From assembly GCF_963920485.1 (NCBI RefSeq), contig NZ_OY986431.1, positions 868,001-932,000 on the forward strand: a stretch of DNA of 64,000 bases, read 5' to 3'. Positions within the stretch are counted from its first letter, which is position 1, and every line of letters starts with the position of its first letter. Shown here piece by piece: positions 20,157 to 24,495 of the stretch. The notes beneath the pieces are model-generated. The model ran no database searches, was not told the origin of the DNA, and was given only the letters and a program-made list of their open reading frames with translations. The stretch is from Cyanobium usitatum str. Tous (GTDB taxonomy: Bacteria > Cyanobacteriota > Cyanobacteriia > PCC-6307 > Cyanobiaceae). The translations under genes were made by a program, and so were the position numbers.

Positions 20157-21035
20157 ATGGCCCCATCCCTTTTGCGGATTCGGGCCCTGGAGAAGGGCGA
20201 TCTCGCCGACGTCATCGCCTGGGCCCGCGCTGAACACTTCGCGCCGGGCCAGGGAGACGTAGCGATCTACCGCCATACCGACCGCCAGGGACTCTGGGTG
20301 GGCTGCCTAAACGGTCGTCCGATTGGCTGTATCGCAGGGGTCCGCTACAACGCCGAATACGGCTTCATCGGCATGTTTCTGGTGCAACCAGAGCACCGGG
20401 GTGAGGGATTTGGCCGCCAGCTTTGGCAGCGTGCCCTGCAGCATCTGGAGGGCCTTACTTGCATCGGCATTGAGGCCGCCCCTGATCGCATCGATGACTA
20501 CGCCAGCTGGGGGTTTGCGCCGGCGTCGCCAACCCATCGCTGGCAGCGGATCAGTGATGGCAACATCCCGCCAGCCCCTACCCCTGAGGGCCTGAGCCTG
20601 CTCGAGGGAAGTGCCATACCCGAGAGGGCCGTGCAGGCCTATGACGCCCAGCGGGAGCTCAGCCCTCGGCCCCACTTCCTCGCCGACTGGCTGCACCATC
20701 CAGCCGGCACGGTGCTAGCCCTGATTGGCCCAGATGGTTCATGCCACGGTTTCGGCCGGATCCGGCCTTGCTTGCTGCATCGAGGCGAGGGCTGGCGGAT
20801 CGGCCCCCTGCTGGCCGACACTCCCGCCCTGGCGGCCCAGCTTCTCAACGCCCTGATGGCCCGCCATGCCGGCGTGGTGCTGATCGATGCCCCTGCCGCC
20901 AATACGCAGGCAGGGCCCCTGCTGCTGCAGTTGGGCTTTGCGGTGGTCGCCGAGACGCTGAGGATGTATCGGGGCAGCCTGCCGGCGGTTCCCCTGGGCG
21001 ATGTCTACGGGTTGGCCTGCCTGGAGCTGGGCTGA
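20157..21035 (+). CDS. GNAT N-acetyltransferase, tandem-domain
   Basis: 292 residues. The N-terminal GNAT domain carries the acetyl-CoA loop FLVQPEHRGEGFGRQLWQRAL (about residues 80-100). The C-terminal half (about 150-290) resembles the second GNAT-like domain (Acetyltransf_18 type), with GFGRIRPCLLHRGEGWRIGPLLADT and the ending LGFAVVAETLRMYRG. The acceptor substrate is unknown. It follows the Gly-rich gene by 5 bp and its last 31 bp overlap a convergent membrane-protein gene. Confidence 0.85.
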   Translation: MAPSLLRIRALEKGDLADVIAWARAEHFAPGQGDVAIYRHTDRQGLWVGCLNGRPIGCIAGVRYNAEYGFIGMFLVQPEHRGEGFGRQLWQRALQHLEGLTCIGIEAAPDRIDDYASWGFAPASPTHRWQRISDGNIPPAPTPEGLSLLEGSAIPERAVQAYDAQRELSPRPHFLADWLHHPAGTVLALIGPDGSCHGFGRIRPCLLHRGEGWRIGPLLADTPALAAQLLNALMARHAGVVLIDAPAANTQAGPLLLQLGFAVVAETLRMYRGSLPAVPLGDVYGLACLELG

Positions 21036-21361
21036 GCGCGGCGGGCGGCGATGCCAGCCTCTGTGGCAGTAACAACGGCCAGTAGCAGCAGGCCGCCTAG
21101 CCCAATCAGTTGATTTTGCTGCACTAAATCAGGCATCAACACCTCATCCACGTTTTGGCCCAATACGCCTCCCGCCACAAACCAGGCCGTTGCCAGGCCT
21201 GAGCTGATCCAGTAAGCCCGCCAGCGGCGTTGATAGATGTATCCCGTACCTAAACCAGGTACCAGGTTGAGCACTACAGCCACCCAGGGACTGGAGGCGG
21301 CCAGAATTACTTCTTGGCTGATTTCCTGGCTGGCTTGATCTGGATTGCTGGTTGGGGTCAT
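21005..21361 (-). CDS. Small membrane protein of unknown function
   Basis: 118 residues from the ATG at 21361. Hydrophobic segments at about 25-42, 52-70 and 84-102 with a cytoplasmic loop GYIYQRRWRAYW resembling small 'NLVPGLGTGYIY' membrane proteins found in cyanobacteria. The C-terminus is charged and overlaps the GNAT gene. The frame continues upstream to 21490, but that would overlap the divergent TspO-like gene extensively. Function unknown. Confidence 0.6.
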   Translation of the reverse strand: MTPTSNPDQASQEISQEVILAASSPWVAVVLNLVPGLGTGYIYQRRWRAYWISSGLATAWFVAGGVLGQNVDEVLMPDLVQQNQLIGLGGLLLLAVVTATEAGIAARRAQPSSRQANP

Positions 21362-21881
21362 TTTTGGCGTGGCCTGGTTTGCTGCATCTGGGGCGTTGAA
21401 CCTGCAGGCTGGGGTGCCGCTGATTCTTTTTGCAGTGCTCGCCGCCCTGGTGATTCTGTTGGTGATTGTGGCTGTGGCGTGGAGTCTCAATCCAAGCCGG
21501 CAGGATTTTGCCTGGTTTATCCGGCTGCGCCGCCCCCGCTGGCTGGTATTTGAGGGTTTGATTCCCGTGATTTGGCTGCTGATCTACGCCTGCTTCTACA
21601 TCTCGGCCTGGCTCACCTGGCAGGCCAGCTGGAGCGGCCTGTGGATGGCGGCTTTCCTGGTGCAGCTTGTATTGGTGCAGAGCTACACGCTTGTGATCTG
21701 CCGTAGCCGCAGCCTGGGTAGGGGCACGGCCATTGGCTTTGCTGGCTGGGTGTGGGGCATGGCCCTCACCCTCGCTGTGGCTAGCGTGAGCTCGCTGGCG
21801 GCTGCTTTGCTGCTGCCTTATCTGCTCTGGAGCCCGGTGGGCACCTGGGTTACCTGGCAGATGCGTCAGCTCAACCGCTAG
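21345..21881 (+). CDS. TspO/MBR-like tryptophan-rich membrane protein
   Basis: 178 residues with five hydrophobic helices. The stretch RPRWLVFEGLIPVIWLLIYA, then WLTWQASWSGLW and the aromatic-rich helices, fits the TspO/MBR tryptophan-rich sensory protein family, known to bind porphyrins and regulate tetrapyrrole metabolism. The family-typical W-x-P-P is not intact, so this is a divergent member. The start is uncertain: TTG at 21345 overlaps the divergent gene by 17 bp, while GTG at 21369 would leave a 7-bp gap. Confidence 0.65.
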   Translation: MLVGVIFGVAWFAASGALNLQAGVPLILFAVLAALVILLVIVAVAWSLNPSRQDFAWFIRLRRPRWLVFEGLIPVIWLLIYACFYISAWLTWQASWSGLWMAAFLVQLVLVQSYTLVICRSRSLGRGTAIGFAGWVWGMALTLAVASVSSLAAALLLPYLLWSPVGTWVTWQMRQLNR

Positions 21882-21891
21882 CCCTGGTCAC

Positions 21892-22470
21892 CTATGGCGA
21901 CTCGCGAGCCACGGCCAGGGCCGCCAGTAAGCCGCCGCCAAAACCGCTGAGATGGCCGATCCAGCTCACCCCTGGTGGTGAAAAAATCGGCAGCAGGCTC
22001 GGCAGCACCCCCGCATAGGTGACCAGGGCCAGCACCGATAGGAGCAAGGAGAGGGGCCGCTTCTCCAGCCAGCCGATCAGCAGCAGGTAGCCCAGCAGCC
22101 CGTACACGACCCCGGAGAGTCCGTGACTGCCGTTGGGCCAGAGCAGCCATACGGGAATAGCCGTGGCATAAACCCCCAACCAAACAGCCAGATAGTCGCG
22201 GCGGCCCCGCAGCAATACCAGCCAGGAGAGGGGCAGAAAGGTGAGCGAATTGGCCAGGAGATGGCCAAAACCGCTATGGCTGAAGGGAGCTGTCAGCACC
22301 CCGAGGAAGGAGCCTCCGGGCGTCATCGGCAGGTTCCAGTTGCCACCGAAAACCAGCTGGTCCACCAGCTCCTGGAGCCAGGGAATCAGCAAGATCAGCG
22401 GCGGAATCAGCAGATTGAAACCGGCTCGGGCGATCCAGCGATCCAGACGTTGGGGTAGAGATTCGCTCAC
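21892..22470 (-). CDS. Rhomboid-family intramembrane serine protease
   Basis: 192 residues, six hydrophobic helices. The catalytic serine is in HGLSGVVYGLLGYL (GxSG motif) and the partner histidine in WIGHLSGFGGGLLAAL; the first loop is rich in aromatic residues as in rhomboids. It would cleave membrane-protein substrates within the bilayer. It overlaps the upstream gene by 4 bp and is part of a minus-strand set with the two genes at 22467 and 23030. It is convergent with the TspO-like gene. Confidence 0.88.
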   Translation of the reverse strand: MSESLPQRLDRWIARAGFNLLIPPLILLIPWLQELVDQLVFGGNWNLPMTPGGSFLGVLTAPFSHSGFGHLLANSLTFLPLSWLVLLRGRRDYLAVWLGVYATAIPVWLLWPNGSHGLSGVVYGLLGYLLLIGWLEKRPLSLLLSVLALVTYAGVLPSLLPIFSPPGVSWIGHLSGFGGGLLAALAVARESP

Positions 22471-23033
22471 GGCTCGCCCTTGAAGCTGCAGCGCAGCATG
22501 GCTAGGGCTTCATCGGGAAGGCCCAGCAGGCGATCCAGCCAGGGGTCGCCGCAAGGCGGCACACTCGCCACCCCCACCAGCAGTGCCGTGCCATCGGCGT
22601 CCATGGGCTGGCCCATGGCCCGGTGGCGTTGCCCCTGCGCCGAACCCGTGCTCAGCAGGGTGTCGATTAGCAGGTCGGGGGCGCGGTAGAGCCCAGCAAT
22701 GCGGAAGCGAAAGCGGGCCCGGAAGTGCAGTTGCACAGCACCAGTTGCTGAATCAATGCTGCCCGCCAGCTGCTCAGGGGCGATGACGATCTCCAGTCCC
22801 GGGGGCAGGGGCAGTCCCAGCACCCGGGTGGTGCGCCAGTTGAGCGGCGGAATCAACAGGGTTGAGGGCTCGAAGCTCACGGTTCGCGGGCCGTCAGCTG
22901 GGCCTCGGCCGAGCTCGCCGGTTCCGCCGCCGCCGCTGGCGTCGTAGCTGAAGTGGGGATAGGCGCCGATGGCCAGGCCACACCCCTTACTGGTGGCTAG
23001 CTGCAGCGTGGCAACCCCTAACTCGGGGCTCAC
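22467..23033 (-). CDS. Conserved cyanobacterial protein of unknown function
   Basis: 188 residues, no membrane segment or signal. Composition suggests a beta-rich soluble protein: repeated hydrophobic-alternating strands (VQLHFRARFRFRIAGLYRAP) and a Gly-rich loop GGGGTGELG. No known family recognised with confidence. It overlaps the upstream PPC-glutaredoxin gene (4 bp) and the downstream rhomboid gene (4 bp), so the three are probably one translationally coupled operon. Confidence 0.7.
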   Translation of the reverse strand: MSPELGVATLQLATSKGCGLAIGAYPHFSYDASGGGGTGELGRGPADGPRTVSFEPSTLLIPPLNWRTTRVLGLPLPPGLEIVIAPEQLAGSIDSATGAVQLHFRARFRFRIAGLYRAPDLLIDTLLSTGSAQGQRHRAMGQPMDADGTALLVGVASVPPCGDPWLDRLLGLPDEALAMLRCSFKGEP

Positions 23034-23635
23034 AGGCTGCGCAGCGCGTCTAATTCGCCGCGGCTGTGCAGTTCAGCCAGTTCGTTGTAGCCACCAATGG
23101 CGACGCCATCGATGTAGAGCTGGGGCACCGGACCCGTCTCGTCGGGTTCGATTTCCACGAAGGCAATGCCCAGGGTGCGCAGCATGCGCAGGGCCCGGCG
23201 CGAAAAGGGGCATTCCGGCCGGCCGGCGATTTCCACTCGCGGTTCGCTGCTGGCCGATGCAATAGGCGCTGAGCTGAGCAGGCCCACCAGCAGGTCGGCG
23301 CCGCGCAGCACCAGGGTGCCGTGCTCGAGGTGGCCACCCCAAACCTGGCAGCTGGCATCGGAGAAGCTCAGGTGCAGGTGCACCCCATCCGGGCTGATCG
23401 TGCCCTGCAGGGTGATGATCTCCAGCTCGCCAGCCAAAACCGTGGGTGCGCTTTTGCCAGGACAGGCAAAAGCGGCTTGGGAGAGGTTGCCCACCACACT
23501 CAGCACAAATCCGCCGGCGTTGTGGTCAAGGGCCAGCTGCTCCAGGCTGCGGCGCACATCACTGCCAGCTTCGAGGTGCAGCGGCACGGCACGCATGGCA
23601 GATACAGAAAAGAGCGCAAGGCTACGCCGGCCCAT
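23030..23635 (-). CDS. PPC/DUF296 - glutaredoxin fusion protein
   Basis: 201 residues in two parts. Residues 14-120 look like a PPC (DUF296) domain: RAVPLHLEAGSDVRRSLEQ, GGFVLSVVGNLSQAAF, then VHLHLSFSDASCQVWGGHLE, where the histidines may bind metal. Residues 132-201 are glutaredoxin-like: RPECPFSRRALRMLRTLGI holds a CPFS active site (142-145) and VPQLYIDGVAIGGYNEL the cis-Pro and glutathione-binding loop. PPC alone occurs in bacterial proteins and plant AT-hook factors; joining it to glutaredoxin is unusual. An internal ATG at 23596 (MRAVPLHLE) may be the true start. First gene of the three-gene set. Confidence 0.8.
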   Translation of the reverse strand: MGRRSLALFSVSAMRAVPLHLEAGSDVRRSLEQLALDHNAGGFVLSVVGNLSQAAFACPGKSAPTVLAGELEIITLQGTISPDGVHLHLSFSDASCQVWGGHLEHGTLVLRGADLLVGLLSSAPIASASSEPRVEIAGRPECPFSRRALRMLRTLGIAFVEIEPDETGPVPQLYIDGVAIGGYNELAELHSRGELDALRSL

Positions 23636-23658: not shown

Positions 23659-24495
23659 ATGGCCCCGGATTCCGCCCTCGCTGCGCTCAACCTGGCGGTG
23701 GTCGGTCATGTGGAGTGGGTGAGCTTTGTGGCCGTGGAGCAGCTGCCAGTTGCTGGCTCGATCGACCGGGCCACCGCTTTTCTGGAGGAACCCGCCGGTG
23801 GGGGCGCGGTGGTGGCGGTGCAGCTGGCCCGTCTCAGTGGCAAGCGGGTGCGGTTTTTCACCTCCCTGGGCCGAGACGCTACCGGCGAGCGCTCAGCGGA
23901 GCGGCTCACTGAGCTCGGCCTTGATCTGGAGGTGGCCTGGCGGGATGCCCCAACCCGGCGGGGCGTGAGCTTTGTGGATCGGGCCGGTGACCGCAGCATC
24001 ACCGTGATCGGCGAGCGACTGGCCCCTTTGGCTAGGGATCCACTCCCCTGGGCTGATCTGGCTGGCTGCGATGGCGTCTTTGTGACCGCGGCCGACGCGG
24101 CAGCCCTGCAGCACAGCCGCCGGGCCCGGTTGCTCGGCGTTACGCCACGGGTTGGCTTGCCGCTCTTGGAGGCCAGCGGGGTGAGCTGCGATGCCTTGAT
24201 CGGCAGCGCCCTTGATCCTGGTGAGCAGGTGCCTGCTGGCGCTCTATCGCGCCCCCCGCGACTGCGAATCGCCACCGAAGGGGCTGCTGGTGGCTGGAGC
24301 GAACCCGGCGGGCGCTTCGCTGCCCAGGCCCTGGTGGCCCCGCCGGTCGACAGTTATGGCTGCGGCGACAGCTTTGCAGCCGGGGTGCTGGCGGGACTGG
24401 CGGCTGGTTGGAGCGCAGCCGCAGCAATAGGCCTGGGCGCCCGCTGCGGCGCCGAGTGCGCCGTTGCCTTTGGTCCCTACGCCCGCCCTAACTAA
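23659..24495 (+). CDS. PfkB-family carbohydrate kinase
   Basis: 278 residues. Ribokinase/PfkB fold: the N-terminal substrate segment ATAFLEEPAGGGAVVAVQLARLSGKRV (G-G-x-x-x-N-like region with Gly-Gly), FFTSLGRDATGERSAERL, and the C-terminal ATP/catalytic motif VDSYGCGDSFAAGVLAGLAAG containing the catalytic Asp (DTFxAG variant with GCGDS). Sugar or nucleoside specificity cannot be told. It is divergent from the PPC-glutaredoxin gene (23 bp) and its stop overlaps the convergent VOC gene by 8 bp. Confidence 0.88.
   Translation: MAPDSALAALNLAVVGHVEWVSFVAVEQLPVAGSIDRATAFLEEPAGGGAVVAVQLARLSGKRVRFFTSLGRDATGERSAERLTELGLDLEVAWRDAPTRRGVSFVDRAGDRSITVIGERLAPLARDPLPWADLAGCDGVFVTAADAAALQHSRRARLLGVTPRVGLPLLEASGVSCDALIGSALDPGEQVPAGALSRPPRLRIATEGAAGGWSEPGGRFAAQALVAPPVDSYGCGDSFAAGVLAGLAAGWSAAAAIGLGARCGAECAVAFGPYARPN

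Follow-up and report, generated by a model that had tools for sequence, protein, structure and literature searches.

A PCC-glutaredoxin fusion of one cyanobacterial family with fusion-specific cysteines, a glutaredoxin half lacking helix α2 and a linked predicted β-barrel protein

Introduction

What could be the use of joining a PCC (DUF296) domain to a glutaredoxin (Grx) in a single polypeptide? This question is raised by a gene of Cyanobium usitatum str. Tous (Cyanobiaceae), located in a stretch of 64,000 nucleotides (NCBI RefSeq assembly GCF_963920485.1, contig NZ_OY986431.1, positions 868,001 to 932,000 of the forward strand), hereafter called the window. PCC domains form trimeric assemblies with bound metal. 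Our literature search found no known function for the PCC proteins of picocyanobacteria.

The architecture as such is already in print. We take class VI glutaredoxins to be the class that is fused to DUF296. In the six-class scheme (Couturier et al. 2009, via PMC3816324), class VI seems restricted to cyanobacteria, as far as the available text goes. The available part of Alves et al. 2009 (PMC2679010) describes DUF296-GRX as a bacteria-specific architecture, which has an N-terminal DUF296 and a C-terminal GRX domain in one bacterial protein in common with our fusion; it assigns the glutaredoxin of these proteins to the CPYC class and suggests DNA binding from a zinc-finger-like motif. Fusion-specific cysteines of the PCC domain, the loss of helix α2 and the neighbour that we call P2 are all unmentioned in that part of the paper. 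We describe here the helix loss, together with the thiols C45 and C83 and the linkage to P2 as testable additions. In the literature searched, no report was found of fusion-specific cysteines or, using narrow phrases only, of a glutaredoxin without helix α2.

Results

Gene, domains and predicted structure

The original prediction described a reading frame at 23030-23635, with a PCC-like region followed by a glutaredoxin-like region. The gene is real and lies on the minus strand. Frame and coordinates are correct, but translation probably begins further downstream: a start codon upstream of the conserved methionine is absent in two near relatives (L002 and L004; some other relatives have in-frame starts there), and the alignable part of the protein begins at this methionine. 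The true start is therefore probably Met14 of the longer frame (23596). Residue numbers such as C45, H73 and C129 are counted from this position, while the Pfam spans given here follow the numbering of the longer frame. All features are listed in Table 1.

Both halves were recovered by profile searches. Pfam PCC (PF03479) matched residues 16-117 with an E-value of 1.7e-20 (73.9 bits; cut-off 25), and Pfam Glutaredoxin (PF00462) matched residues 134-163 with 28.6 bits (cut-off 22.9); no other Pfam family scored above its cut-off for the fusion. The CPFS motif expected at residues 142-145 of the longer frame and the proline of VPQ in the cis-Pro loop are both present. The Glutaredoxin 3 equivalog TIGR02181 reached 40.7 bits, which is below its curated cut-off of 90.

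We predicted the structure of the fusion with AlphaFold2 from an alignment of 77 sequences, i.e., the window protein and 76 of the 80 loci described below (L083, L115, L136, and L152 were omitted). The model has a mean pLDDT of 92.4 and a pTM of 0.59, with block values of 88-96 up to residue 180 and a dip in the linker. Because the linker is modeled with low confidence and the pTM is only 0.59, the two halves have no fixed mutual orientation in the model, which shows no docking of the glutaredoxin on the PCC domain. The PCC half aligns with the PCC structure 2p6y (Z 20.1, rmsd 1.2, 107 residues), and the glutaredoxin half with E. coli Grx3 (1fov; Z 10.4, rmsd 1.9, 69 residues). In the genome from which the window was taken, the fusion is the only PCC match and one of six glutaredoxin-family matches.

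Table 1. Positions of the fusion gene, its parts and its neighbours in the window
Feature	Position	Strand	Remarks
PCC-Grx fusion gene	23030..23596	-	188 aa from conserved Met (Met14 of longer frame), stop included
13-residue N-terminal extension of longer frame	23597..23635	-	probably untranslated
PCC/DUF296 domain	23276..23596	-	residues 1-107; lacks the TGYxEL strand with which stand-alone PCC proteins usually end
Cys45, fusion-specific conserved thiol	23462..23464	-	99/99 fusions; 0/57 stand-alone PCC
His73-x-His75, presumed metal ligands	23372..23380	-	99/99 fusions; 57/57 stand-alone PCC
Cys83, fusion-specific conserved thiol	23348..23350	-	99/99 fusions; Gly in 57/57 stand-alone PCC
His89 of GGH, presumed third metal ligand	23330..23332	-	99/99 fusions; 57/57 stand-alone PCC
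Variable linker	23237..23275	-	residues 108-120, from alignment; block 111-120 averages pLDDT 60, with values under 50 at 113-115
Glutaredoxin-like domain	23033..23236	-	residues 121-188; β1-α1-β2-β3-β4-α3, no α2
Catalytic Cys129 of CPFS	23210..23212	-	99/99 fusions
Short loop at deleted helix α2	23129..23149	-	residues 150-156; from interval counts, no helix in model
Pro158, presumed cis-Pro	23123..23125	-	invariant in 77/77
P2, predicted β-barrel	22467..23033	-	188 aa; no Pfam match; conserved C18, C182; model pLDDT 91.5
Rhomboid-family membrane protein	21892..22470	-	PF01694, E 1.4e-16
Divergent pfkB-family kinase (context)	23659..24495	+	PF00294, E 2e-19; neighbour of the fusion only in a subset of close relatives

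Distribution and maintenance of the fusion

The expectation that the fusion is conserved in relatives was borne out within one family. The full fusion was found in 26 of 37 genomes of the family to which the window belongs and in none of 23 genomes from other families (60 related genomes in all). A search of 290 genomes of the class gave matches at E ≤ 1e-10 in 123 of them. Only 38 carried the fusion, all from the same family, which argues against a wide distribution; in the remaining 85 the match never extended beyond residue 139 of 188. Within the genomes searched, the fusion is restricted to one cyanobacterial family.

The five pairs compared gave whole-gene dN/dS values of 0.10-0.14 (three close relatives) and 0.25 (two more distant relatives), i.e., the fusion gene is under purifying selection. 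Together with the 26 family genomes that carry the fusion, these values rule out an assembly artefact or a pseudogene. For the survey of loci we used the best 80 of 325 relatives, ranked by likeness to the window protein; almost all are recorded as Cyanobium, Synechococcus, Vulcanococcus, Prochlorococcus, or other cyanobacteria. One locus (L119, CALPNT020000053.1) is titled as a metagenome-assembled genome of Bifidobacterium breve yet holds a cyanobacterial fusion locus, and this bin is probably mislabelled or contaminated.

Conserved residues of the two halves

We compared 99 aligned fusions, which include three second copies of contigs (L042/L145, L043/L132, and L044/L128), with 57 stand-alone cyanobacterial PCC proteins, a sample from the window's family and others rather than every match. 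The fold of the PCC half is that of the stand-alone PCC/DUF296 structures 2p6y, 2hx0, 2h6l, and 2dt4 (Z 13.6-20.1), and the HxH...GGH motif is common to both groups; E59 is found in all 57 stand-alone proteins. The two groups differ in their cysteines. Only C45, C83, and C129 form all-cysteine columns in the fusion alignment, the next-best column holding six cysteines. The first two belong to the fusions alone: position 45 of the stand-alone proteins is occupied by Phe (33), Leu (21), Tyr (2), or Trp (1), and the top three PDB relatives aligned have no cysteine at position 45 or 83. An extra row in the stand-alone comparison, L226, turned out to be a fusion itself and carries both cysteines. 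According to the DSSP string of the model, C45 and C83 sit on different turns, and they may not meet within one subunit. The TGYxEL strand, in turn, belongs to the stand-alone proteins. The strict pattern was absent from all 99 fusions, and a looser pattern matched 55 of the 57 stand-alone proteins but only two fusions, both inside the glutaredoxin C-terminus. The fusions have thus lost this strand, and the tail of the PCC domain has been replaced by the glutaredoxin.

The PCC fold also matched the metal-containing protein AF0104 (2h6l; Z 13.6) and acetolactate decarboxylase (6j92; Z 9.6). The latter is a zinc enzyme whose site has the form His-x-His...His. This likeness suggests that the invariant HxH...GGH motif probably holds a metal. 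The original prediction had proposed redox control of a metal or nucleic-acid binding function. Its metal part gains some support from the three histidines, present in every fusion, and from the fusion-specific cysteines in the same domain; for the nucleic-acid part we found no support.

In the glutaredoxin half, the active site starts with CP in 96 of the 99 fusions, and its fourth position is occupied by Ser (92), Cys (5), or Thr (2). Most of these motifs therefore have no resolving cysteine, which makes one elsewhere plausible. CPxS is replaced by CAWS in three loci (L111, L112, and L125, including Vulcanococcus). G168 and G169 of the GGY loop are invariant in the 77 aligned fusions. E. coli Grx3 (1fov/3grx) and cyanobacterial Grx A (3qmx) share the cysteine, the cis-proline and the GG motif with the fusion (Z 10.3-10.4), but they have CPYC in place of the CPxS of most fusions, and helix α2 is absent in the window's group. 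A basic residue is usual in glutaredoxins three places before the catalytic cysteine. Many fusions have Leu or Ala at this place, so that glutathione binding may be weak.

Loss of helix α2 in the glutaredoxin half

The interval between the catalytic cysteine and the cis-proline falls into two classes. It measures 42 residues in 48 of the 99 fusions and 28-30 residues in the other 51, with nothing in between; within the short class, two rows have 28, 11 have 29, and 38 have 30 residues, the window protein being one of the last. The residues that the short group lacks correspond to the position of helix α2 in ordinary glutaredoxins. Without the duplicate contig copies, this helix is absent in 51 fusions and kept in 45. 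The AlphaFold2 model has β1 at residues 121-124, α1 at 130-141, β2 at 146-149, β3 at 159-162, β4 at 165-168, and α3 at 170-178, and no helix between β2 and β3. The PF00462 profile behaves accordingly: three scanned members with the helix match positions 1-60 or 3-60, whereas the window protein and two other helix-less members match only positions 1-30 of 60. Judged by alignment and model, the glutaredoxin half of the window protein is about 12 residues short and is not a complete glutaredoxin fold but a glutaredoxin-derived variant.

A tree of 95 rows, from which the three contig copies, L033 and the columns of the trait itself had been removed, separates the 50 helix-less rows from the 45 with the helix by one change. 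The dividing branch has an SH-aLRT value of 69 in a quick search with several long branches, so a single loss of α2 is likely rather than proven. The dN/dS values of 0.10-0.25 indicate that the helix-less gene is maintained. If a glutaredoxin without α2 is conserved and under purifying selection, it would show how little of the thioredoxin fold a domain of this kind requires.

P2 and the gene neighbourhood

Based on 4-bp overlaps, the fusion had been suggested to form a possible three-gene redox/membrane unit with a protein of unknown function (P2) and a rhomboid protease. Both overlaps exist (GTGA, 23030-23033 and 22467-22470), and the order fusion-P2-rhomboid recurs, but only in 13 of the best 80 of 325 loci, i.e., it is partly conserved. 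In 18 of these 80, the fusion is followed by a rhomboid gene (13 with and five without P2 in between), which weakens the idea of a three-gene operon; the rhomboid seems to be a neighbour specific to certain lineages. P2 is the likelier partner, since it lies next to the fusion in 59 of the same best 80 loci. It is found on the same strand in 55 of them, downstream in 40 and upstream in 15, and divergently oriented in four, so that the linkage survives rearrangement, which suggests a shared job. In 57 of the 59 loci, both genes are separated by no more than about 110 bp, and in the other two by about 785 bp; these values are approximate because we set the gene starts ourselves. No P2 was seen at 21 of the best 80 loci, and some of these stretches are cut by contig ends.

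The P2 family was detected in 22 of 60 genomes searched, all from the window's family, and in none of the 23 genomes outside it. In the 37 family genomes, 20 have both genes, six only the fusion, two only P2, and nine neither (p 0.0014 in a Fisher test that makes no correction for kinship). Restricted to the 21 genomes that are at least 90% complete, the numbers are 13, five, one, and two (p 0.25, not significant), and this line of evidence for P2 is therefore moderate.

Searches of Pfam, NCBIfam, PHROGs and PADLOC returned nothing for the window's P2 at the thresholds used. A Pfam scan of 58 family members gave a single DUF7092 match (E 0.093, one member) and nothing else at E ≤ 0.1. We aligned these 58 sequences (the window's P2 and 57 of the 59 adjacent loci, without L081 and L153): C18 is present in all of them and C182 in 53, the exceptions being L111, L105, L116, L122, and L123. 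A confident structure prediction of P2 (pLDDT 91.5, pTM 0.86) consists mainly of β-strands. A Foldseek search with this model had no match at E ≤ 0.001; structural comparison aligned it with NspA (Z 11.0), OmpA entries (8.1-9.8), the polyisoprenoid-binding protein TT1927b (7.9), and PsbO entries (6.9-7.9). This likeness to barrels may reflect only a common arrangement of a generic kind.

Some further observations concern the surroundings of these genes. G029 is a genome estimated as 88% complete in which no fusion was detected; here P2 has as neighbours an ABC-3 metal permease, a FUR-family regulator and an ABC ATPase (L202:4752-7878). Three genomes in which P2 is not beside the fusion encode a small conserved protein (ALIEQ...SMPLGGKSL) at a distance of up to about 2 kb from P2 (L202:5443-5835, L203:2510-2902, and L206:4309-4713); a Pfam scan of two of these copies gave no match. 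In the window, a GNAT acetyltransferase gene (20157-21035, plus strand) has counterparts near the fusion in nine of ten more distant loci (L046-L055) and in 19 of the 97 loci used for neighbour clustering. It is overlapped by a minus-strand frame (21005-21490), which also overlaps a TspO-family gene (21345-21881, plus strand). This frame shows 66-97% identity in five close relatives that keep most of its length; an extended TspO start is the alternative. A link to phages or defence was considered and rejected: in PHROGs, the fusion weakly matched one thioredoxin-domain entry (E 2.8e-4), the rhomboid matched one entry without assigned function (E 2e-6), and P2 had no match; PADLOC had no match to fusion, P2, or rhomboid.

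Discussion

The fusion-specific cysteines C45 and C83 occur in the PCC domain only where a glutaredoxin is attached, and they are therefore best explained as its substrate or resolving partner. We tentatively favour, as a reading that still falls somewhat short of an even chance, a glutathione-linked thiol switch that acts on these PCC thiols. The PCC domain, with its presumed metal site of three histidines, would have gained the two cysteines on fusing to a monothiol-type (CPxS) glutaredoxin and shed its own last strand. The CPxS active site would imply a monothiol-type mechanism, in which Cys129 would undergo exchange with glutathione. It would most likely reduce Cys45 and Cys83 of the same or a neighbouring subunit of the presumed oligomer, or attach glutathione to them and take it off again. 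The state of the metal or ligand site would then track the glutathione redox state of the cell, and P2, with a conserved cysteine pair of its own, would be the most probable partner downstream. The glutaredoxin of the window's lineage has dropped helix α2 and retained Cys129, the cis-proline and the GGY loop.

A credible but less probable explanation leaves the PCC half with the role of an oligomerising scaffold, the glutaredoxin serving an external client. This client would most likely be P2, whose C18 and C182 would be kept reduced or deglutathionylated. The adjacency of both genes in three arrangements among the best 80 of 325 loci, the conservation of the two P2 cysteines and the confinement of both families to the same cyanobacterial family in the genomes searched all fit such a role, but it leaves the fusion-specific C45 and C83 unexplained, and of the 37 family genomes, two have P2 without the fusion and six the fusion without P2. 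We consider it unlikely that the fusion is a metal or iron-sulfur carrier, in which the PCC histidines and C45/C83, with the glutaredoxin thiol and glutathione, bind zinc, iron, or a cluster and transfer it. The three-histidine site and the additional cysteines would suit a carrier, as would the metal-uptake genes beside P2 in G029; this neighbourhood, however, was seen in one genome only, and a proline after the active-site cysteine, present in nearly all fusions, usually disfavours cluster binding. Slightly less likely still is a decaying glutaredoxin half, which after losing α2 and the second cysteine would be redox-inactive and kept for binding only. The deletion in 51 of 99 fusions and the low TIGR02181 score point in this direction. 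Against it stand the invariance of Cys129, Pro158 and the GGY loop and the low dN/dS of the whole gene.

In plant AHL proteins, which are known for DNA binding, this function is carried out by the AT-hook. We regard it as highly improbable that the fusion is a DNA-binding regulator under the control of its glutaredoxin, as proposed by Alves et al. 2009 (PMC2679010). The zinc-finger-like motif put forward in the available part of that paper and the titles of some PCC entries in the PDB ("putative DNA-binding protein") speak for this proposal, but PCC and glutaredoxin are the only Pfam domains of the fusion above cut-off, and the PCC fold aligns with acetolactate decarboxylase as well.

The thiol switch that we favour can be extended to a bolder picture, which we regard as possible but doubtful. 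Here, C45 and C83 would supply the thiol partner missing from the CPxS glutaredoxin, and nucleophile, resolving thiol and metal-site output would be combined in one polypeptide as a self-contained redox device. The glutaredoxin would have been pared down to a minimal thioredoxin fold without α2 in one large Cyanobium/Synechococcus lineage, possibly since the PCC domain or P2 covers the exposed sheet, and P2 would be a new barrel-shaped client family found in these picocyanobacteria only. Picocyanobacteria (Prochlorococcus, Synechococcus, and Cyanobium) perform much of the ocean's photosynthesis. With three conserved thiols, a presumed metal site and a linked partner, the fusion is a small protein that offers a testable handle. 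PCC domains were also seen in another fusion: G039 encodes a nucleotidyltransferase/hexapeptide (GlmU-like) protein with a C-terminal PCC domain (L028:70-1992, plus strand; E 1e-29), and PCC matches in frames of 617-648 aa in five genomes of the same family as G039 (G063, G112, G102, G077, and G142) suggest the same GlmU-like fusion.
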